NCBI RefSeq assembly: GCF_001623525.1
Contig: NZ_CP015225.1
Location: forward strand, 1,426,001-1,490,000
Direction: 5' to 3'
DNA: 64,000 nt
Origin: Pseudomonas fluorescens
GTDB lineage: Bacteria; Pseudomonadota; Gammaproteobacteria; Pseudomonadales; Pseudomonadaceae
Shown one piece after another: positions 4,181 through 64,000 of this stretch. Position 1 is the first letter of the stretch; every line of letters starts with the position of its first letter. Below the pieces are notes generated by a model, which was not told the DNA's origin, did no database searches, and was given only the letters and a program-made list of their open reading frames with translations. The position numbers and the translations under genes were made by a program.

Positions 4181-6109
4181 CTATTTCATCGTCTGCCCAA
4201 TGATCTGCACTAGGTCAATCTGCTTGAACGGCTTGATCAACCGAGGCAATTGGGTGGCGAAACCTTCCAGGCGTTCGGCATAACCGGTGGCCAGGATGAT
4301 GGGCAGGTTCGGTTGGCGGTCGCGCAACAGCTTCGCCAACTGCGCACCGTCCATCTGCGGCATGGCCATGTCGGTGATGACCAGGTCGATGTCCGGGTTG
4401 CGCTGATACAGCTCCAGTGCCTGGGCGCCCGATGGCGCGCAAAGGACCCGGTGCCCGAGGTCTTCGATCAACAGGCGCGTGCTGGTCAGCACCAGGCTGT
4501 CATCATCGACCACCAGCACTTTCAACTCATCGACTGGCTGCGTTGTTTCCTGGATCGACGCTTTGCCCGGTGCCGGGTCGTTTGCCACCGGTAACCACAA
4601 CTGCGCGGTGGTACCGACACCTTTCTCGCTCCTGAGCGTCAGACGTCCCCCCAGCTGTTCCGCCAGGCCATGAACCATGGACAACCCCAGGCCCGTGCCT
4701 TTGCCAACCCCCTTGGTGGTGAAAAATGGGTCCACGGCCGAGGCCAGCGTGGCTTCATCCATGCCCTCGCCTTCATCGGTAATCGCCAGGCAAATGTAGC
4801 GCCCGGGGGGCATCGGCTTGTCGTGGGCCGCATCACCCCCTTGCCGCTCATCGGCGGTAATCAGGAGCTTGCCACCATGGGGCATGGCGTCCCGGGCGTT
4901 GGTCGCCAGATTGAGAATCGCCAGTTCCAGTTGGTTGACATCGGCCAGCACCGGCGACAGCGCCTCGGCGAAGCGGGTCTGGATGTGTATCGATGGGCCC
5001 AGGGAGCTTTGCAGCAGGCCGCTGATACCCTGCACCAGGGCCGCCAGCTCGACCGATTCGTAGGTCAGTTTTTGCCGGCGGGCAAACGCCAGCATGCGCT
5101 GGGTCAGCGAAACCCCGCGCAGCGCGCCCTGGGTCGCGTTGTCCAGCAATTGAGTGAGTTTCGGCTCGTCGGGCATGCGCTTGCGCACGATCTCCAGGTT
5201 GCCAAGGATAACCGTCAACAGGTTGTTGAAGTCATGGGCGATGCCGCCGGTGAGCTGGCCGACGGCTTGCAGTTTCTGGGATTGGAACAGCGCCTCGCGG
5301 GCTTGCTCAAGGGCCTGCTGGGCCTGGGTGGCATCGGTAATGTCACGGGTGATCTTGGCAAATCCCAACAGCGTGCCGGTGTCGCTGCGGATCGCATCGA
5401 TGACCACGTGGGCCATGAAGCGCGTGCCATCCTTGCGCATGCGCCAGCCTTTCTTCTCGAAGCGCCCTTCGCTGGCGGCAATGCTCAACGCCCGTTGTGG
5501 TTCGCCGGTATCGCGATCCTCGGGGGTGTAGAACATCGAGAAATGCCGGCCGATAGCCTCGGCCGGAAGATAACCCTTGATCCGCTGCGCCCCCAGGTTC
5601 CAGTTGGTGACCTGGCCTTGCGGGTCGAGCATGTAGATGGCGTAATCGGTGACGCTTTGCACCAGCAGGCGGAACTGCTGCTCGCTTTGCTTGAGGGTTT
5701 CCTCGGCCATCTTGCGATCGGTCAGGTCGCGGGTGATCTTGGCGAAACCAAGCAAGGTGCCGCTCTGGCTGTCGATGATCGGATCGATCACCACATGGGA
5801 CCAGAACAGCGTGCCGTCCTTGCGCACCCGCCAACCCTCGCCCTCAAAGCGCCCCTCCTGCACGGCCGTGTCCAGCGCCCGTTGCGGCAGGCCGGCGGCG
5901 CGATCCTGATCGGTGTAGAAACGGGAGAAATGCTGGCCCAGGATCTCGGATTCCTCGTAGCCCTTGACGCGCCTGGCGCCGGAGTTCCAACTGGTGATGA
6001 GGCCCGATGGGTCGGTCATGTAGATGGCGTAGTCGACCACCGCGTCGATGAGCAGGCGAAAGCGCTGTTCCTCGTTCATGAGTGGGGACTTGGGGGCGTT
6101 CTCAAGCAT
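4181..6109 (-). CDS. PAS-PAS hybrid histidine kinase with receiver domain
   Basis: The 642-residue protein has no membrane segment. PAS 1 (about 15-135) and PAS 2 (about 145-265) are close copies of each other; both contain a VDYAIYM/TDYAIYM start and a GFAKITRD end. A HisKA domain follows with phospho-acceptor His292 in GGIAHDFNNLL. The HATPase domain has N-box residues near 400-404, DEGEGMDE, and GKGTGLGLSM near 470. A C-terminal receiver has the acidic triplet 535-537, acceptor Asp580 in ITDMAMPQMDG and Lys626. It is a cytoplasmic sensor, probably of redox or light-type signals through PAS pockets; the internal receiver suggests a phosphorelay. I chose ATG 6109 because the longer frame would overlap the helicase gene. 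The partner regulator is not adjacent. Confidence 0.88.
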   Translation of the reverse strand: MLENAPKSPLMNEEQRFRLLIDAVVDYAIYMTDPSGLITSWNSGARRVKGYEESEILGQHFSRFYTDQDRAAGLPQRALDTAVQEGRFEGEGWRVRKDGTLFWSHVVIDPIIDSQSGTLLGFAKITRDLTDRKMAEETLKQSEQQFRLLVQSVTDYAIYMLDPQGQVTNWNLGAQRIKGYLPAEAIGRHFSMFYTPEDRDTGEPQRALSIAASEGRFEKKGWRMRKDGTRFMAHVVIDAIRSDTGTLLGFAKITRDITDATQAQQALEQAREALFQSQKLQAVGQLTGGIAHDFNNLLTVILGNLEIVRKRMPDEPKLTQLLDNATQGALRGVSLTQRMLAFARRQKLTYESVELAALVQGISGLLQSSLGPSIHIQTRFAEALSPVLADVNQLELAILNLATNARDAMPHGGKLLITADERQGGDAAHDKPMPPGRYICLAITDEGEGMDEATLASAVDPFFTTKGVGKGTGLGLSMVHGLAEQLGGRLTLRSEKGVGTTAQLWLPVANDPAPGKASIQETTQPVDELKVLVVDDDSLVLTSTRLLIEDLGHRVLCAPSGAQALELYQRNPDIDLVITDMAMPQMDGAQLAKLLRDRQPNLPIILATGYAERLEGFATQLPRLIKPFKQIDLVQIIGQTMK

Positions 6110-12734: not shown

Positions 12735-15700
12735 TCAGAACTGCCAATCCAGGGTCAGGCCCACGCCGTGGGTTTTATCCCGGGAGCCGATCAGGCCGTT
12801 GTAATCGAGGTTGAGCCGCACATCCTTGGCGACCGCAAGCCCGGCACGGGCACCGATCACGGCGGCGTTGCGGTCCATGGACACACTCTGCACCGCGAAG
12901 GTGTTGCTGCTGCCGGCGAAGGCCAGGTCCTGTTCGGACGTGGTGCTGCTCAGGTTGTGCTGCCAGCCGAGGGAGCCGGACAGTTGTAGTTGCTGTCGAT
13001 CCGACAGGGCCAGGGTATGGTTGGCCCGCACGCCCAGGGTCGAGAGCACGGCATCGCGGCGATCGTCGCCACCGTGCAGGGCCGCGTTATCGCCTTTCTC
13101 ATGGAAGCTGTCGCTGTCCAGGTGCACATAGGCCAGGTTGGCAAACGGCTCCAGGGCTACCGGTTGCAAGTTGAGGCGATACGCCGCTTCGGTGAAGAGC
13201 TGGGTGGTCCGGGCATCGCGCTTGGTTTTCTCCCGGCCACTGACGTCGCCCCATTGCAGGTCCCGCTTGACGTCGACGCGATGCCAACTGTGGGCAGCGC
13301 CAACGGTCAGGCGCAGCGCGTCGATTTCATGTCCCAGGTAGGCCCCCAGGTGATAGCTGTCGGCCTTGGCCGATGAATGGGTGCCGTCACCCATGCTCAA
13401 CGAACTGTCGCTGTAGCCGGTGACGAAGCCCAGTCGCGTCTGGTCGCTGATCAGTCCGTCGACACCGGCCAGCAGCCCGCCGATGGAACTGGTCGTACTG
13501 GCGTGATCATTTCCACCATCGTTTTTGCCCCAAGCGCCCAGCACCTTGAACCAGGCATTGCTGCTGGCATCGGTCGGCGTACCGGCGTCGTAAAGGGCGT
13601 CCTGGCGCAGACGATCACCCACGGCGTCGCGCAACTGACGACTGTCGTTGATCAACAGTGTGCCAATGGCCGGATGGATTTCACCGGACAGTTGCTGGAA
13701 TGCCTGTTGCGCCACGGCGGTGCTGGGCGAAAGCAGCAAGGCTTCGTAGAGTCCGTTGCCTGCGCCCAGTCGTTCGGCGGCCGAGGCAACGGAGCGCTGG
13801 TTAGGCGTCAGGCCGAGGCTGGCGAATGACGCGTCGTTACGCTCGACCGCCAGTTGAATGCCACTGGTGCTGTACGCCAGGTCGCCCCCCAGAAACGCAT
13901 AGTTGGGCAAGACGCCAGCGAAGCGCCCGTCAATACCATCGGCGGCCTGCAGGATATTGAACTGCCGGCCCAGCAGGCTTTTCACCTCGCCAGCCGTCAG
14001 CAGTGTCGGGCTGTTTTCCAGGGACAACGACACCGTCGCCCCGTCAATGGACGCCTTGCCGTCGGCCACGATCAGGTCGCTGGCGGTGGGCGAGACTTCC
14101 ACCGAGTAGTTCGAACCGGGTTGAAAGGTCACGTCGCCGGCCACCTGCAAGGTGCCGATGGAGTTGCCCGGCGCCACGCTGCCGCCGCGGCTGGCGGTCA
14201 GGCTGGCGATGCGCCCGTTGCCACCGAGGATGCCGCCGTCGTTGACCGTAACGGCCGAGGCCAGCGAGCCATTGATCGCCAGTCGCCCTTGATTGACCAG
14301 GGTCGGCCCGCTGTAGGTGTTTGCGCCGGTGAGCACCAGGGTGCCGATGCCCTCCTTGGTCAGGCCGCCGTGGCCGGCGATGTCGTTGCGCCAAACGTCC
14401 AGGCCACATTGGATGCCGCTGCACACCCGTTCCGTGGGTTTGCCGGCATCGATGATCGCGCCGATGCCCGGCAGGTCCACCACGAACTGGCCGGAACCAT
14501 AGGCGCCATCGATGCGAAACTCCGCGGGGATGTCCTGCTCGGTCACCAGCATCGATGGACCGTCGATGGCCTTGCCCAGGTTGATCATGCCCCAGCCGTA
14601 CAACGAATCGACGCCCGGCGCGCCCATGTCGGTGGCGGTGGTGCGTAGCACGCTGGCGACCTGGGCGCCGGTCATGTACGGAAAACGCTCCATCAACACC
14701 GCCACGCTGCCGGCAACATGGGGCGCGGCCATGGAGGTGCCGCTCTTGTTGGCGTAGCCGACAGTCAGGTCGTCGGCACGGGTGCCGCCGATCACGGCGC
14801 TGTAGACCCGGGTGCCGGGGGCCGACACGCAGAAACTGGCGGTGTAGCCGCAGCGCGACGAGAAGGTGCTGATGGTGTACGGATCGGCGCTGGCGGTGTC
14901 CGGATTGACTTGCAGCGCCGCCACGGTGAGCCAGTTCGGCGCGATGTCCGGCACGAAATACGCCAGGCCCGCGATGGCATCGGGGTTATTGAGGTTGTAG
15001 TCGTTGCCGGCGGCGAAGATCGTGACGATACCGCTGCGGGCCGCGGCGATGGCGCCCTCGTAGGCGCCGCCAGGCTTGGTGCCCAGCAGCGGCTTGATCT
15101 GATCGAATTGCAGTTGCGCGTCCTGCACCGTGAAGTGCGGGAACGCCGGATCGCGGCCGCCCTGGTCGAAGCGATCGGTGATGCCAATGCCCCAGCTGTT
15201 GTTGATGATGCGTGCGCCGCTGGCGATCAACGCGTCCCAACCCGCCTTGTACACTGCGCCATCGTTGCCCAGGATGATGCCGTCTTCGGGGCCCGGGTCG
15301 CCGTTGTCGGCGCTGATGATCTGCGCATCGTACGCCACGCCGTGCATCGGGCTGCCATCGCGACTGCCGGCAGCGATCCCGCCGACATGGGTGCCGTGGG
15401 AACCCAGCTTGCCATCGGAGCCAACGGTGGGCGAGCCGTCGTAACGGAACGGATCACCGGCTTTCACCGGGATGTAGGGATCGGTGTACTCGCGGATACC
15501 ACTGGTGACCAAGGTCACCACTTTGCCAGTGCCGGAGAACTCCGGGTGCGCCGCGTAGACCGGCTGGTCGAAGATCCCCAGCTTGACGCCCTTGCCGGTA
15601 TACCCGGCGGCGTAGGCCTGCTGTGCGTTGATTGCCCCCAACCCCCATTCGGCGTTGAATTCGCTGCTGCGCCAACTGTCTGGATTACCCGCCCTGCCGC

Positions 15701-25690: not shown

Positions 25691-25969
25691 ATGAATAAAG
25701 GATCCTTCAGCAAGGTTACGTTCCCTAATGCTTGCCAGTTAATGCGCTGGCACTTCCATCCCATGGGATTCGAAGCAAGCATGGATGCGCCTGGCAGCAT
25801 GGTTGCCCGGCTGTTTGACCGTGCCAGCGGCGAGACCATGATCGCCATTGCGGGTATCCCCTGCGCGACGGTGATGAATGCCCCGGATGTTGAACGAATA
25901 ATCGAGGCCGTGGAGGCCGAGCTGGAAGCCTTTGTACCACCGGTGGGGTTGCGGCGGTTTGCCTCTTAA
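25691..25969 (+). CDS. DUF1652 family protein
   Basis: The 92-residue protein matches the Pseudomonas DUF1652 pattern: a SKVTFPNACQLMRWHFHPMG start, a middle RLFDRASGETMIAIAGIP strand and an acidic helix RIIEAVEAELEAF. It is small, soluble and of unknown function. The start at 25691 follows GAAGGCGGG; the longer frame adds 14 unconserved residues. A strong terminator follows at 26012. Confidence 0.88.
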   Translation: MNKGSFSKVTFPNACQLMRWHFHPMGFEASMDAPGSMVARLFDRASGETMIAIAGIPCATVMNAPDVERIIEAVEAELEAFVPPVGLRRFAS

Positions 25970-49735: not shown

Positions 49736-50440
49736 ATGTTGAATGCCGTCATTTCTGGCAAGAAACGAGGCACTGGGCTTGAAGGTGCCCGGTTGATACT
49801 CGGCCAAGCAGAGGGCTCGGAAGATGTGATCACGGCGAGTGTCTTCGAACGTCTTTCTTACTTGCCAGACGATTTATTCAGTTCCACGTTAACCACGTTG
49901 TTGGGCGTAGCCTTTGGTGCAATTGAAGAGATCGACTTTTGGCCATCGTGGTACCTGCCTGACGGTCGTCGCGTCGAACCCGATGTAGTGATAAGCGATG
50001 GGCAACAGTCGCTATTGGTGGAGGCCAAGCGTCATGACTATTCTCGGCAACAATATGCAGGGCAGCTGGCGGCAGAGCTGCAAGCCGGTTGGGCTGAGGG
50101 CAAGCTTGCCGAAAACTGTATATTGCTGACTCTCGGCGGCTTGACCGATATAAGCCACAGCACACATAAGGAGCTGTATCAAAACATCATCACAGCCCTA
50201 CCTGTTGGCAATGACGCCCGATTCAAACTGGTCTGCTGTAGCTGGCAGCGGCTGTTCTGCATATTGGAAGACGAGCTGAAGAAAGACTCTGAGCCAGGAC
50301 TGCAACGGATGCTTTCCGACGTCTCCGACTGCTATTCCTGGCATGGTTTGCACACTCATCGCATGTTATGGCTAAGCGCACTAAAGCCAATCCATTTAAC
50401 TACAAACCCAAGTATCTTCGACAAGTGGAATCTAAAATGA
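49736..50440 (+). CDS. PD-(D/E)XK nuclease-like protein, first of a coupled pair
   Basis: The 234-residue protein carries RVEPDVVISDGQQ followed by SLLVEAKRHDYS, that is, the Asp ... Glu-x-Lys core of restriction-type nucleases, with a Gln/Tyr-rich helix (QQYAGQLAAELQAG) behind it. The N-terminal part (ITASVFERLSYLPD) is helical. No named family is recognised. Its stop overlaps the next ATG as ATGA, so both proteins are probably made in fixed ratio. Position in a mobile element suggests a defence function. That is inference. Confidence 0.75.
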   Translation: MLNAVISGKKRGTGLEGARLILGQAEGSEDVITASVFERLSYLPDDLFSSTLTTLLGVAFGAIEEIDFWPSWYLPDGRRVEPDVVISDGQQSLLVEAKRHDYSRQQYAGQLAAELQAGWAEGKLAENCILLTLGGLTDISHSTHKELYQNIITALPVGNDARFKLVCCSWQRLFCILEDELKKDSEPGLQRMLSDVSDCYSWHGLHTHRMLWLSALKPIHLTTNPSIFDKWNLK

Positions 50441-54110: not shown

Positions 54111-54788
54111 ATGAAGCTGTACTACTTAACTTCAGAGAAGTGGGCGAAAGTCATTCTGCATGAGCGGCGCCTCAAGCTATCGACCATAGCAGAGCTAAAT
54201 GATCCTTTTGAGTTACTCGGTGCATCAATAGGAGAACCTGCTGCACGCAAAGTTCTTAGGTACGTCCAAGGGCGTGTCGCCGATACGTTCGGCTTGGTGT
54301 GCATGAGCACGACTTGGCAGAGTCCGGTGATGTGGGCGCACTACGGCGACAAACACAAGGGCGTATGCCTAGGCTTTGAGGTGATCGAACACGGGCTCCG
54401 CGAAGTCACCTATGAACCCAAAAGACTTAACAAACTTCTTGGGGAAAATCCCCGCTTGGGCAATGTGACTGCCGAAGTACTGAACACGCTACTCACAACC
54501 AAATCGGCGGAGTGGTCCTATGAGAAAGAACATCGCTTGATCGTTCGCTTCGACAATGCAGTGTCAGGCCCCAATGGAATGCACTTCCTGCCGTTCAACA
54601 ATGAACTCCTTACGTTAAAAGAAGTAATTCTAGGCAGTCGTTGCGATTGGACTCTGCAAGCAGTTAAGCGTGCGGTTGGCAAAGTACCGCATCAGGTCTC
54701 GCTCAAACGAGTGCGCCCGTCGTTCCAAGATTTCAAAATGGTTCAACAACGCAAGGAGCCTATTGTCTATGTCAAACCGAAAACCTAG
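54111..54788 (+). CDS. DUF2971 domain protein
   Basis: The 225-residue protein has the DUF2971 layout: an N-terminal YYLTSEKWAKVIL strand, LNDPFELLGAS, the core MSTTWQSPVMWAHYGDKHKG then VCLGFE, and YEKEHRLIVRF. DUF2971 proteins are widespread near phage-defence genes and of unproven activity. AGGGA lies five to six bases before the ATG. It follows the amber-interrupted ORF in the same direction. Confidence 0.85.
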   Translation: MKLYYLTSEKWAKVILHERRLKLSTIAELNDPFELLGASIGEPAARKVLRYVQGRVADTFGLVCMSTTWQSPVMWAHYGDKHKGVCLGFEVIEHGLREVTYEPKRLNKLLGENPRLGNVTAEVLNTLLTTKSAEWSYEKEHRLIVRFDNAVSGPNGMHFLPFNNELLTLKEVILGSRCDWTLQAVKRAVGKVPHQVSLKRVRPSFQDFKMVQQRKEPIVYVKPKT

Positions 54789-55724: not shown

Positions 55725-57499
55725 CTATTGCGCACTATCTTGGTTTCTCCATGCCCGAACAAGCTTGGAGTAATCTTCATCACCGCGTGCAGCGTTCCAC
55801 TTTTCGCCAATTTTTGGGTCTCCGCTGTTAGGGTATTTATCATCTGGTAAAACATTGAATCTGCACCGGGTAGGGAGCTGTGCTGCTTCTCCTACTATAA
55901 TAGCCTCCCCTGTTCTAAGGATGGGTAGTGAGTCAACAATCCCGGCCAAGCCATCGGACATAGCTGCTTTGACTATCCCACGATCCGTCGAGTTATTTAT
56001 ACGCAGCGATATAATTGTTCCACACTGAGATAAAATAGTTTCATCTATCTCGGATGGACGTTGACTAACAATCATGGCGCCGACTCCAAACTTGCGACCT
56101 TCTTTAGCAATCCGCTGCACCATTTCTTTTGCGTGCCCACTCTCTGACTTCCCAAGATAACGGTGGGCTTCCTCAAGGACGATAAGAAGGGGACGCTCAC
56201 GCATCCCCTCATTGACATTTCTCCCCCAAATAGCTGACTCAAAAATAATATCGAGAACTGCCCCCCAAAAGAAGCGTCAACCGTGCCGAGGGCATGCCGG
56301 ACAAATCAAATATCGTTATAGGTTTATCATGCCCAAGCCAATTCTCCAGAAGCCCATCTAAATCTTTCTTGATCTTGCCCTCTTTGTCTGGATTCCAATC
56401 GCCTGGCTCCAGCAAGAACGAGTATTGCGTATCAAGCAGCCTTGATTTCATCAAATCAAGCTGCCTCTTCATTGCCCCAGTTCCGCCCTTCTTCGGTAGT
56501 GATGCACCAGCCCCAGGAGGGAGAAATTTAGGGGCGATCAAATCATCAAAAGCCCCCCTCCCCACCAGGAGAGTATGCTGGCGTAGTCATGGCGGCATCA
56601 CTGTAATTAACACCGTCTTCATGGCAAAGCTCATACCATATCTTCTTTAATCTATAAGGAAGCGGCGTGTTACTTGTTATTTTATCAACATCAATGTTTG
56701 GTATATCATTCTCAATGGTGCCAAACCTCTTTTCATCAACGGTTTTATCCATAAAAAGTGATCGCTGAGAATCGTTTGGATTATTGCAAAGAAATTCAAT
56801 AAGCTTTTCTGGCGAGATACACCAAAACGGTATGTACAACTGATTTTCGCCCGAAGGCATGATTGAAAAGGTCTTGGCGACATCGCTAAGTGCTGGACCA
56901 TATTCACCATGAATATCTATCAGCAAAACCCTCGCAGATGGTAAGGGGGATTCATCAGGCTTGATCACCATCGATCGAAGAATGCTTGCCGTGCTGGTTG
57001 ACTTCCCAGATCCGGTAGACCCCAAAATTGCGGAATGGCGAGCGACAAGCTTATCCAGATCCAAGCTTATTTCAATTCCTTCCGAACTAGATAGGCGGCC
57101 AACTTGGAAGTGACTATTCAAGTGCTTTCTGAAAATTAATTTCAGGTCGCTCTCGACGACAAAATGGACATGATCGCCGATGCTTGGGTATTCGCTTATG
57201 CCGCGATCAAAATTTCCACCGATGGATTCTCCCACTAGCTCCACTTTGATCCATTTTCTCTCCGAAGACATTTTGGAATCGGCGTCGACAGTTGAGGTTT
57301 CACTAGATTCGGAAATAACTCCGTATAGGTGGTTATACCCCAAAGGAATTTTCACGAAGCTTCCGACTTGCCCGATTCGATAATTGCGTCCTTCCAAAAC
57401 AACAATTCCAGACTCCACTGAGGCCGCGAGTTCAACGGCCACCGAAGAGCTTGAAACGGCGCTTACAAGGCCCAGAAACGTTGGCTGGATGATTGTCAT
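55725..57499 (-). pseudogene. HerA-like ATPase, broken by two +1 frameshifts
   Basis: The gene starts at ATG 57499 (AGGAG six bases upstream), overlapping the SIR2 stop as ATGA. Segment 1 has an N-terminal barrel and Walker A GSTGSGKST, then LLIDIHGEYGPAL. It shifts at a six-G run near 56551-56556 and segment 2 continues GAFDDLIAPKFLPPGAG to TIFDLSGMPSARLTLLLG. It shifts again at a six-G run near 56261-56266 and segment 3 continues AVLDIIFESAIWGRN with Walker B LLIVLEEAHRYL. Removing one base from each run restores one long HerA protein of about 590 residues. HerA is a hexameric DNA translocase and the partner of SIR2 in known anti-phage systems. Confidence 0.85.
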
Positions 57500-58682
57500 A
57501 TTATCTCCTCTTGCACTTCCTGTGGTACCGGAGGAACTGCATCTTGAGATATATCGCTACCAGCAGTTGCCAGAAAACGAGCTAGCCGTAGAAAATCTCC
57601 AAGCAGAAATTTATTGTCTTTATAGTATTCTGCTCGAATTTCATGCCAACTTTTGGTTGGAGGGGTTCCGATTTTCCACTTTGCTTCTACTCCATTAATC
57701 ACAGCGCCATCGCTACAAAAAACACTTATTCCCGGGCACTTTAGCGCCAATTCCTTGGCGGCCTTTTCATCTGCCAGACCATTGAACTGAAAGGCAAATA
57801 ACGCGGCGGTGGGGTTCGCCATTAGGCACTCAAGCAGCCTTGATGAAATGTGGGCATCCGCAAAAGAAAACCCGGTGCTTAAAATTAATGTATCTGGTTC
57901 AAGGATGAAGTTCTTCAAACGATCAAAAAGAGAAGAAAATGGGGCTGCTTGCGTTTGATCGTACTTTATGTGCGATGGATAAACCATATTGGCGCTTTTA
58001 GCATTCGGTACGCGTACAACCTCTCCATTAGCATTTGATTCCCAGCCAATGGAGCCATGAAGTTTCCAAAGCCTTACCCAACGCGGGGGGAAGATCATTT
58101 TTTGAAATGCTTGAAGGATCAAAAAAAGCGCTCTTGGAACCGCTGAACCCATCAAAATAGGGTGTTCGAGCCCGCTCCAAGGCATTTTCAATTAAAAGAT
58201 CATAATTTGTTGTAAAGATTTCAATCGCATACTTTCTATTAATACCGTTAATCCACGATACAAGTTCAGAGTATGGATTTGCGCCCAATGGCAAGTCCTG
58301 CGCAACCACTTCCCGAATCGAATTGCATATTGCCTCGGATAAACCGGAGAAATCTTTTTCCGTATAATCAAAGAGCTTACCATCGCCTACAACCTCTGCA
58401 AGCATTCTGACACGCGATAGCACCTTCTCTAAGTTTGAGTCCGAAAATGAGGATTTTATTTGATTGTAAACTCCCCGCTGACTTTCCGAAAGTTTATCTA
58501 ACACAATTTTCTCAAGGCCGGCGATATTTGGTATCAACGGCTTCCAAGTGCCTGCCTCACCTATGTTTATGCTAACGGGGGGCCCCTGCACCTAGCAGTA
58601 TTCCTATTCTCTTTCTTCCGTTTGTAGCAAGCTGGCGAAATCCAAACATGTGCTGATCGGGGTTGTGCGAGGTATTTTCCAT
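57496..58682 (-). pseudogene. SIR2-family NADase-like protein, broken by two +1 frameshifts
   Basis: From ATG 58682 the protein reads MENTSHNPDQHMFGFRQLAT to GILLGAGAP. A six-C run (58577-58582 in plus-strand G) then shifts the frame. One base fewer gives LGAGAPVSINIGEAG, the NAD-binding start of SIR2. The middle has FTTNYDLLIENAL. A second six-C run (58085-58090) shifts it again before PRWVRLWKLHGSIGW (catalytic His), and the end carries LSTGFSFADAHISS. With both runs at five the product is one SIR2 domain of about 395 residues. In related systems SIR2 depletes NAD on phage infection with HerA as partner. As read here the gene is inactive. Confidence 0.86.
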
Positions 58683-58730: not shown

Positions 58731-60140
58731 CTATTTTCCTGGATTTGCGACATTGCTATTAAGATCGGAAAATTTCGCAGCCATAGTTGGGTTGCCGCGG
58801 GTAAGTTTTTTTATCGTAACATCCTGCGCCTTGTCATTCGCTAGACGAAGGTTTCGGTCGGTACCTAGCAATGCCTCCTTCGTCTTTTGGAGATGGTCGA
58901 TTGACTTATCAATTTCACTAATCGCCGTTTGAAATCGCTTTGAGGCCAGGTCAAAGTTTTTTCCGAATGCTGACTTAAACCCCTCAAGCTCAGTTTCAAA
59001 ATTTGTGATGTCGATGTTTTGCGCCTTCATAAGCGCAAGCTCAGACTTGTACTTCAGGGAGTTCATAGCCGCGTTTCGCAGCAGCGTTATGATTGGAATG
59101 AAGAACTGAGGCCTAACGATATACATTTTTGGAGATCGGTGAAAAACATCAACGATTCCCGTGTTGTACAGTTTGCTCTCAGGCTCCAGAAGGGATACCA
59201 ATACAGCGTACTCGCACCCTTTCTCAATGCGATCTTTATCAAGCTCTTTTAAGAAATCTTCATTCTTATTTTTAGTTGCAGTTCGGTCATTTTCATTTTT
59301 CATTTCGAACATAATGGAAACGATTTCTGTTCCTGCCTCGTCCGAATCGCGAAATATATAGTCCCCTTTACTTCCGGTTCGTGCATCATTGTCTTTTTCG
59401 AAGTATGCTCTTGGAAAGGCTGTGGCTCGAATACGGTTGAACTCTGTTTCGCAGTGCTGCTCGAGGGTCTCACCAACCATCTTTGTCGATAAGCGTGCTT
59501 TCATATCTCTGAGACGCTCGATAGCGTCATCACGATCTTTGATCTGCGTTTCGTATTTATCCTTGAGCGATTTTTCTGCAAGCTGCTTTTCTAGTTCTGC
59601 TTTTTCGAGAGCACTGTGCAGCTTATCTCGCTCTTTCTCGACAGAGCTAATGGCCTCAGTAATCGCAAGCCTTTTGCCGATCTCTATAGACTCGAGCTTA
59701 GATTTTAACTCCTGAATTTCAGAGTCTTTGGTCGCTGCGCTCTTCTGCAATTCATTTAGAAGCTTCGCTTCAGCCAACTTTGAGGCAGATTCTTGTTCGC
59801 GGCGTGTCTGCTCAAGCTCGTAAGCAAGCGTGTCACGCTCTCTCTCTACAACGCTTAACGCCTCACTGACGGCGAGTTTTCGCGCGACCTCTTCAGTATC
59901 AATCCTGGACCGCAGTTCTTGAATTTCTGCATCCTTGGTCGTCGCTGACCTCTGCATTTCGGTAGCGGCCTTGGCGATCGCTAGCTCAACGGCATTCCGC
60001 TTATCTTGCTCAGCCAGTTCAAGTCGCTCATGCAGCTGCTTCTCGAAATCGGTATCTCGAACCTGTTTCAGGATATCTGCGTATCCAGCCTCATCAATTT
60101 TGAACGCCTTTGCACAATGCGGACAGATAATCTCGTGCAT
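58731..60140 (-). CDS. DUF2130 coiled-coil protein with nuclease-like C-terminal domain
   Basis: The 469-residue protein starts with a CPHC-type zinc-binding end ([10 protein letters not shown]). A long coiled coil (30-225) contains an internal duplication: residues 61-112 match 130-181 with offset 69. The DUF2130 domain has [10 protein letters not shown] then [11 protein letters not shown] (Asp ... Glu-x-Lys), consistent with the PD-(D/E)XK/RmuC-like fold. GGAGGCG precedes the ATG. The SIR2 gene starts 48 bases after the stop on the same strand, so they may share an operon. Function in defence is inferred. Confidence 0.87.
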
Positions 60141-61733: not shown

Positions 61734-64000
61734 CAGAAGGCCTCCGCGTCGGATTCATCGAAGACCATGTCCGGCGAAGTACCGGTGTTGTCGGGGGATA
61801 GTTGCCGACTCGAAGTCCTGCAAGTCCCAATGTCCTGCTCGGGGTGATCGTCTGGCAGGACATCAGGACTTGCAGGACATTGCTTCGATAACTTTCTCCC
61901 GATGCCCCACTTCACCGTCCCCCCAGATTTACCCAGGGGCTTGCACTCGATGCCTATCTGCCGAAGAGCTGGAGCGGCACGTCGCAGGGCGTCCCCTAGC
62001 CCCTTCGCGGAACGCGGCCACGAATCGCAGCCGGTTGGACGGTACTGTTCCAGGGTACGTAGAATCTCCTTTACCGGGGCGGTAACTCCGTGCGGACGCG
62101 CCTCGACCAGTTCCACTACGGCAGCAGCTACCGGGCTAGCGTCAATGGTGCGAGCCAGACTTTCCTGCCGACTGGAATTGAACTCGTGCAGGAAATCCTT
62201 GGGCTCATGTCCCGCTGCGGCGGCGACAGCCATACCCAGGCGAGCGAATTCAACCAGCCGCGGACGCTCGTCAGCGGGGATGTGCATCTGCGGAACTAAC
62301 TCCAGCGCCTTGGCGAAAATATCCAGCAGCGCCCCCAGCAAACACGGACGCTCGGCTTCGTGTTCCCGCCAAAGGTCTGTCACTTCCAGCCGCTCGCTGA
62401 TAACCGGCGTCTCGATAGTGATCGTTCTGTCCACCAGATCTTGCGCCGTGACTGCCGCTGATATTCCATTCAGCACGACAGGGCGCTTCACGCTGATAAC
62501 ACTTTCGTCGGCATCCGAGTACAGCTTGCGCTTGGCAAAGCCGCCTCCGGTTGCCAATACGCACATGGCATCCTGAGTTGCTGCGGGCAAGTGCGAGACG
62601 TTCTCCAGGCTCACTACCGCACACACACCAGCAGAAACGAATAGGTCTTCCGACGACTTCGGTGCACTGCGCAATGGGCAGGAGTTCGGATCAATGAGCT
62701 GGCGCAGTGCTGTTTGTGTCGTGCTCTTCGCACTCCCCTGCTCGCCCAGCAGCTCTAGCACTGGATAAGGCGTATCAGGACGCAGGCATTCGATCAGCCA
62801 AGCCAGGGCAAGCAGACGGGAGCCGCGCGGGATGTTCGCCACGTGCCAAAGTTGCTCGATCGATCCACCCGGAGCGGGAGCCGGAATCGGCTGCATGGAT
62901 TCAGGTCGAACGAACATGGCCTCGGGTGACTCGGCGATCTCCCACTTACCCGGCCGGATGTGAACCGCTCGACTACTGCCTGGTACAGCCAGGTCGAGAA
63001 AGTAATCACCAGCGGCACCGGCAGTGCGCAGGTGTACCTCCTGACAGTCTCCATGGAATCGGCCGAGGCCGGCCAGGGTGCCCAGCGCCTCCCGGACCGA
63101 TTGATCTCGGGGCGCCTTTCCACTGTCGGAGTAAAAGCCGGCGACCAGTGCATCTCGGAACTGGCGCGCGGCTAGATTACGCACTTCGCCCGTCGTGCGA
63201 TCCTTGGCGAAGACGTCCTTGTTTTGATCGTGGAACAGCTCGAAGCGTTGCTCCACGAACTTGACCAGCAGAGAAGCCTGGCTCTGTTTTTCGTCAGCAT
63301 CATCACCGGGCTCGAAGTGTTCCTCGTCTGACTGCTGATCGTCGTCTTCGAACTGCTGTTTACCGGGAGCGTCCACCATTTGCAGGAGTTGCTCGCCGGT
63401 GCCGCCCGCGTCCAGCCAGTCGGATACATCGCCCTTCGGCAGCAGCCCAGGAAGGCAGAGCACGCGAACTCCGGCCTCTGCCAGACTTAGAGCCCGACAA
63501 ACCTTGGCGGCGTGCTTATGTCCCGGTTCATCGTTATCAGCCAGAATCACTACGCGGCGACACGCGAAGAATTCGTTGAGCGCATCAGGCCACTTGCCAG
63601 CGCCGCCGGCGTTGCAGGTTGCGACCAGCCCCAGCGATTCCAAGCGCAGTACGTCCTTCTCGCCCTCCACGACAAACACTGGCTTACCCAAGGGTGCGTG
63701 CAGCAACTGCGGCAGACGGTAGGGAACCTGACGCACACCCTTCACAGACCACACCCAGCCGCCTTTTCCGTCCGAGCGGCGCTGGCGAAAGTCCTTTGGC
63801 TCGTAGCGAACAACTTGAAACAGAAAGTTGCCGTCTTCGTCGGTGTAGTCATAACAAGCCGACATGCGACGGCTGGCCGGTAGGACATTAGGACTTTCAG
63901 GACAGGGCGCCGGCTGCTTTTCTTTTAAGCCGTGCTGCTCAAGCCAGCCCATTTGCTCAGCCCGACTTGTGATGCCGGTTTTCCAGGCAATCAAATCCAA
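61733..64000 (-). CDS. Primase-helicase of a mobile element (partial, N-terminus beyond window)
   Basis: At least 755 residues are visible. A TOPRIM domain has KPVFVVEGEKDVLRLESLGL then VVILADNDEPGHKHAAK (Glu and Asp-x-Asp metal residues). The C-terminal half has a P-loop, LLGEQGSAKSTTQTALRQ, and an SF3/DnaB-type ATPase region (VVSLENVSHLPA). The two activities would prime and unwind DNA for replication of an integrative or phage-like element. The true start lies beyond base 64000. It is followed by the coupled 96-residue gene, then HNH. Confidence 0.87.
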   Translation of the reverse strand: MDLIAWKTGITSRAEQMGWLEQHGLKEKQPAPCPESPNVLPASRRMSACYDYTDEDGNFLFQVVRYEPKDFRQRRSDGKGGWVWSVKGVRQVPYRLPQLLHAPLGKPVFVVEGEKDVLRLESLGLVATCNAGGAGKWPDALNEFFACRRVVILADNDEPGHKHAAKVCRALSLAEAGVRVLCLPGLLPKGDVSDWLDAGGTGEQLLQMVDAPGKQQFEDDDQQSDEEHFEPGDDADEKQSQASLLVKFVEQRFELFHDQNKDVFAKDRTTGEVRNLAARQFRDALVAGFYSDSGKAPRDQSVREALGTLAGLGRFHGDCQEVHLRTAGAAGDYFLDLAVPGSSRAVHIRPGKWEIAESPEAMFVRPESMQPIPAPAPGGSIEQLWHVANIPRGSRLLALAWLIECLRPDTPYPVLELLGEQGSAKSTTQTALRQLIDPNSCPLRSAPKSSEDLFVSAGVCAVVSLENVSHLPAATQDAMCVLATGGGFAKRKLYSDADESVISVKRPVVLNGISAAVTAQDLVDRTITIETPVISERLEVTDLWREHEAERPCLLGALLDIFAKALELVPQMHIPADERPRLVEFARLGMAVAAAAGHEPKDFLHEFNSSRQESLARTIDASPVAAAVVELVEARPHGVTAPVKEILRTLEQYRPTGCDSWPRSAKGLGDALRRAAPALRQIGIECKPLGKSGGTVKWGIGRKLSKQCPASPDVLPDDHPEQDIGTCRTSSRQLSPDNTGTSPDMVFDESDAEAF

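Follow-up and report, generated by a model that had tools for sequence, protein, structure and literature searches.

The window, i.e. the whole stretch of 64,000 nucleotides analyzed here, spans positions 1426001-1490000 of a genome assembled as a single contig of 6.92 Mb. Read along its minus strand, it carries a SIR2-family gene (58682 to 57496), then a HerA-family gene (57499 to 55725), and a DUF2130 gene lies next to the pair:

57496-58682, minus strand: SIR2-family gene of the SIR2-HerA pair, three frames as assembled
55725-57499, minus strand: HerA-family ATPase gene, three frames as assembled
58731-60140, minus strand: DUF2130 neighbor gene of 469 aa in a single open frame (Pfam DUF2130, E 3.3e-92), used as a selection control

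The SIR2 pieces at 58028-58591 and 57496-58191 match the PADLOC SIR2 profile PDLC04094 (E 8.8e-62 over profile positions 31-196 and E 2.3e-79 over 180-385, respectively) and are also matched by Pfam SIR2_2. All three HerA pieces match the PADLOC HerA profile PDLC04105 (E 3.1e-62, 4.5e-14, and 1.4e-64) and cover it consecutively (8-320, 321-404, and 416-574 of 576), with an additional Pfam DUF87 match in the first piece (E 4.8e-28). As aligned relatives we used the loci of Pseudomonas putida 17522 (L019), P. palmensis (L020), P. graminis (L021), and Pseudochrobactrum (L022). The genome shares its genus with P. palmensis and P. graminis: G226 and G386, two genomes of that genus, have their matches at positions coinciding with those of L020 and L021. 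The SIR2 orthologues of L019, L020, and L021 comprise 394 aa in one frame, and the HerA orthologues of L019-L022 comprise 590 aa, likewise in one frame.

Structurally characterized counterparts of both proteins are available. The L019 SIR2 protein matches entry 8w9l (E 1.2e-78) and the L019 HerA protein matches 8wiv (E 1.1e-143), and both proteins are contained in the solved Nezha SIR2-HerA complexes 8wld, 8woc, 8wod, and 8wof. The window shares with these systems the same adjacent SIR2 and HerA genes; it differs in that each gene is split twice as assembled. Far more distant matches link both proteins to the SIR2-HerA complexes of the 8j4u/8su9/8uae group (SIR2 E 2.9e-13, HerA E 3.2e-30). For the SIR2-HerA system of V. 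cholerae, NAD+ depletion and the blocking of phages have been described (PMC11559045). Judged by sequence, the components that define the SIR2-HerA (Nezha) type are present, namely a SIR2-family NADase gene and an adjoining HerA-family ATPase gene, but intact reading frames are missing from the assembly, a deficit that is probably an artefact. If intact, the pair would belong to this known type, and we found nothing here that would distinguish it from known members.

The frame breaks coincide with homopolymer runs. The G/C runs of the operon, given without strand, are as follows:

58577-58582: G6 run, SIR2 frameshift; net +1 relative to L019-L021 (the L022 locus stops short); lies in the stretch coding for GAGAPVS in L019
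58085-58090: G6 run, second SIR2 frameshift; net +1 relative to L019-L022
56553-56558: C6 run, HerA frameshift; net +1 relative to L019-L022; C5 in L019
56261-56266: C6 run, second HerA frameshift; net +1 relative to L019-L022
56223-56227: C5 run in HerA, unaffected; length unchanged relative to L019-L022; starts 38 bases from the start of a shifted run
56945-56949: G5 run in HerA, unaffected; length unchanged relative to L019-L022

The extra base is absent from the relatives at all sites that they cover (four of four in L019-L021, three of three in L022). The alignment thus bears out an earlier note on this DNA, which had described SIR2 and HerA as each broken twice by a net extra base in a six-base G/C run; three of its positions stand, and the first HerA run is located at 56553-56558 instead of about 56551-56556. 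Besides these four +1 changes, no indel separates SIR2 and HerA from L019, L020, and L021, and L022 shows a further 27-base difference close to the SIR2 C terminus. The six SIR2 and HerA pieces, trimmed near the runs, contain no in-frame stops. Altogether, the operon holds six G/C runs of at least five bases, the four of length six being out of frame and the two of length five in frame, and the paired breaks are spaced by 292 and 492 bases. The idea that homologues carry five-base runs at these sites does not hold generally: the sole aligned relative with such a run is L019, at the 56553 site, and at the three other sites none has it. At the sites without five-runs in relatives, the window also carries substitutions. 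We rejected run-forming substitutions as part of the anomaly because interrupted six-runs are common both ways: among six-runs without net length change, 43 of 73 of this genome are interrupted in the relative G290, and 40 of 70 of G290 in the reverse direction.

The same lesion was then sought elsewhere in the assembly, using 746 kb of its 6.9 Mb (126 kb around the window, a 281-kb region, 168 kb around mutS, and 172 kb near rpoB) and one main relative, G290, which matches at 93% over one 3.1-kb gene. We counted G/C runs of at least five bases that fall, in the partner genome, within a frame free of stops for 150 codons or more, with the net change inside the run itself; such runs are termed coding-type, a loose label given that GC-rich DNA abounds in long stop-free frames. 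This strict count supersedes a looser first one (24/585 vs 4/573), which had included indels within 8 bases of a run. A net +1 was found in 19 of 586 coding-type runs here; with the roles of the two genomes exchanged, the figure is 3 of 573 (Fisher p = 7.8e-4). By region, the 19 were 2/138 around the window, 14/212 in the 281-kb region, 1/120 around mutS, and 2/116 near rpoB, with 0/211 in the reverse comparison for the 281-kb region alone. The shifted fraction within the operon (4/6 runs vs 19/586 sampled coding-type runs) yields a Fisher p of about 2.5e-5 in what is a post-hoc comparison, and the four breaks in the operon exceed chance.

Net -1 changes numbered 3 of 586 in this genome and 11 in G290, many of them the same places viewed from the other side. 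Part of the 19 events are in fact breaks in G290, with a PTS enzyme, recC, and a transporter whole here and shortened there. These frames, shortened at G/C runs, lie on C1 of G290 around 5710220, 5853917, and 5879044; such breaks of opposite sign are what one would expect if every assembly errs in its own way. Outside coding-type frames, +1 changes affect 2 of 75 runs, which is, in small numbers, like the coding-type rate (p = 1.0). Real mutations under selection should be scarcer in coding sequence, and errors need not be; the similar rates inside and outside coding-type frames are what would be expected if selection were blind to these events.

Firm breaks of genes whose frame is whole in G290, classified partly by eye, affect a LutB/LldF-type gene (two), recD (two), a gene for a 1120-aa DUF2126 protein (two), and a DUF3426 gene (one). 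Three close pairs occur among the seven firm hits, with spacings of 281, 385, and 310 bases; 0.09 pairs are expected (p about 6e-5) when seven hits are drawn from the 234 runs of the 281-kb region, in a test that was designed after the pairs had been seen and that omits 4085712, 4101041, and 4170915 as ambiguous on inspection (its first version had ten hits). These spacings resemble the 292 and 492 bases of the operon. Firm hits are concentrated in the 281-kb region (7/211 vs 2/374 in the rest, the two outside being judged by eye; p = 0.013), and none was found in the 168 kb aligned around mutS. In the sampled regions, no firm hit falls in a gene that we take to be essential. Lesions of the same sign are thus present in unrelated genes of one assembly, as assembly error would produce them. 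Initial tblastn scans for frame breaks served only as leads, since overlapping frames in GC-rich DNA produced many false junctions.

The excess is sparse. Over the 124 kb surrounding the window, this genome and G290 have similar run-length counts, and unaffected five-runs are interspersed with affected ones; the 400-kb stretch holding the 281-kb region shows an excess of six-runs (63 vs 45). A genome-wide overcall of all five-runs is ruled out by these near-equal counts and by the unaffected five-runs near affected ones. The earlier note argued that intact six-runs speak against a general base-calling bias. The two control runs it cited are indeed intact (at 4805-4810 and 13885-13890, and not at 4804-4809 and about 13884-13889 as given there), but the argument fails: the sampled alignments contain 73 unchanged six-runs, the length change touches just a few percent of runs, and the firm hits come in close pairs.

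To look for traces of decay, codon changes on the window branch were counted by parsimony with L020 as outgroup. The SIR2 and HerA pieces show 101 silent and 21 replacement changes and DUF2130 shows 53 and 15 (p = 0.44 vs the pieces); the counts for the L019 branch are 55 and 5. The replacement share of the window branch (21/122) compared with that of the L019 branch (5/60) points in the direction of relaxation without being significant (p = 0.12). These counts indicate purifying selection on SIR2 and HerA that either lasted until recently or continues today. MutS has a frame of 885 codons, the same as in both relatives, and both MutS and MutL are complete by profile. A mutator arising through loss of MutS or MutL is therefore unsupported, as far as the completeness of these two proteins can tell.

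Among the 120 listed of 2028 HerA relatives, 118 measure 585-597 aa and two are shorter (522 and 480 aa). No identical copy of the truncated 317-aa window HerA appeared among the matches listed (120 of 217). One relative, P0002, is a 301-aa HerA fragment with 95% identity over 90% of the window piece, represented by 9 member sequences on 2 contigs. Its last residues depart from the common frame at a different place than those of the window HerA, which means that a broken HerA, real or erroneous, extends beyond this assembly. Plasmid searches returned four records with weak matches, none of the four covering 80% of the query, and the viral contigs searched contained no relative. A search for a closer DNA relative matched 14 of 392 genomes including the genome itself, the next best at 86%.

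Taken together, we consider it most likely that the operon is intact and that residual, local homopolymer errors make it look broken, an explanation we hold with reasonable confidence. The window would then hold an ordinary SIR2-HerA anti-phage operon whose four breaks are residual consensus errors, each a one-base excess in a G/C run, in two short patches of the assembly. The operon of the living strain would be uninterrupted, and the pair would presumably work like characterized SIR2-HerA systems, in which a HerA ATPase joins a SIR2 NADase that depletes NAD+ upon phage infection. We favor this explanation because all four changes are +1 in G/C runs, with no further indel relative to L019-L021 and no stops, and because the same signature splits conserved genes elsewhere, again in close pairs. 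Further arguments are that the pieces are no more relaxed than DUF2130, that MutS and MutL are full length, and that nearly all listed HerA relatives (118/120) are of one size class. Of the three readings proposed in the earlier note, local assembly error is accordingly the best supported, the same lesion being found in housekeeping genes.

Several observations count against residual error. The excess is sparse, with near-G290 run-length counts in the 124 kb and unaffected five-runs in between; no firm hit lies in a gene that we take to be essential or in the region around mutS, as real mutation would likewise predict; some of the 19 events are G290 breaks; the replacement share is higher than on the L019 branch; and P0002 provides a second shortened HerA in public data. 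Homopolymer errors that split genes, recognized by intact relatives, are documented for long-read assemblies of Pseudomonas (PMC12007338). In its account of nanopore errors, that report stresses deletions and places more of them at A/T than at G/C runs, whereas here the changes are +1 at G/C runs; for this reason, we leave the sequencing platform unnamed.

The strongest alternative, which we regard as unlikely though worth taking seriously, is a real and very recent inactivation, either during a period of high slippage (a transient mutator or laboratory passage) or by loss of a costly NADase through slippage, followed by further hits in genes already dead. Real slippage in G/C runs is common, a dead gene takes second hits at no cost, and the firm hits elsewhere lie in genes that are likely dispensable; P0002 is another shortened HerA in public data. 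However, doubling of hits in dead genes implies many +1 changes outside coding-type frames, where we saw the 2 of 75 given above, and +1 is the sole kind of indel in the genes. Together with the full-length MutS and MutL and with pieces that are not more relaxed than DUF2130, this also disfavors the decay under mutator conditions suggested earlier. If the breaks were real nonetheless, clustered gains of one base by slippage would deserve study as a mutational pattern. Another idea, to which we give little credence, is that the +1 changes are real and arise in local showers: within patches of a few hundred bases, several G/C runs would each gain a base at once, whether the gene serves defence or housekeeping. 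If true, it would suggest an unusual tract of error-prone synthesis or repair in the strain, in which recD itself is hit twice.

Phase-variable tracts that switch a costly NADase on and off, the third reading of the earlier note, are very improbable. The four hits do fall within one functional pair, and tracts can switch bacterial genes, some of them for phage defence. Expression, however, would need four tracts in register simultaneously, the runs are just six bases long, three of the four sites have no five-run in any aligned relative, and the lutB-type, recD, and DUF2126 genes carry the same lesion. A long tract that is kept and variable in length among relatives was not seen in L019-L022, and among the matches listed in the literature on tract phase variation of defence, the term anti-phage defence was absent. 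Hardly credible at all is programmed recoding, in which the ribosome would slip by one at CCC-C or GGG-G and restore both proteins from the sequence as assembled: the coding strand does read C6 in SIR2 and G6 in HerA, and tRNA mutants are known to show +1 slippage at proline and glycine codons of this kind, but each protein would need two successive rare events, and both are encoded in a single frame in L019-L021.

If the four breaks are residual assembly errors, the case matters for surveys of defence systems, as intact operons may then be recorded as broken or phase variable even in a complete genome. Testing the housekeeping genes of the same assembly for the same lesion can expose such false breaks without reads.

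The surroundings of the operon offer some further observations. Ahead of SIR2-HerA, the window and three relatives (L019, L020, and L021) carry a DUF2130 gene, which was found in only 3 of the 16 HerA-bearing genomes searched. It is whole in the window and split by one-base gaps in L019 and L021, and in L020 it has a 207-base gap and encodes 394 aa, so that across these four loci, a small sample, its state is the opposite of that of SIR2 and HerA. The PADLOC candidate-defence models PDC-M15A and PDC-S31 match nearby genes at 49736-50440 and 54111-54788, and the stretch with these matches and SIR2-HerA looks like a defence island. Around 148 kb including SIR2-HerA (from window position 25966 to about 173510, past the window end at 64000) are flanked by two blocks, both alignable to G290 and G267. 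No match longer than 1.5 kb to this region was found in the stretches fetched from these two genomes, which carry roughly 165 and 210 kb, respectively, between the corresponding blocks; the ~148-kb stretch is thus a large variable region, composed of a single island or of several. With dnaA at 4887453-4888955, the window (at 1.43 Mb) is located almost opposite on the chromosome, near the expected terminus.
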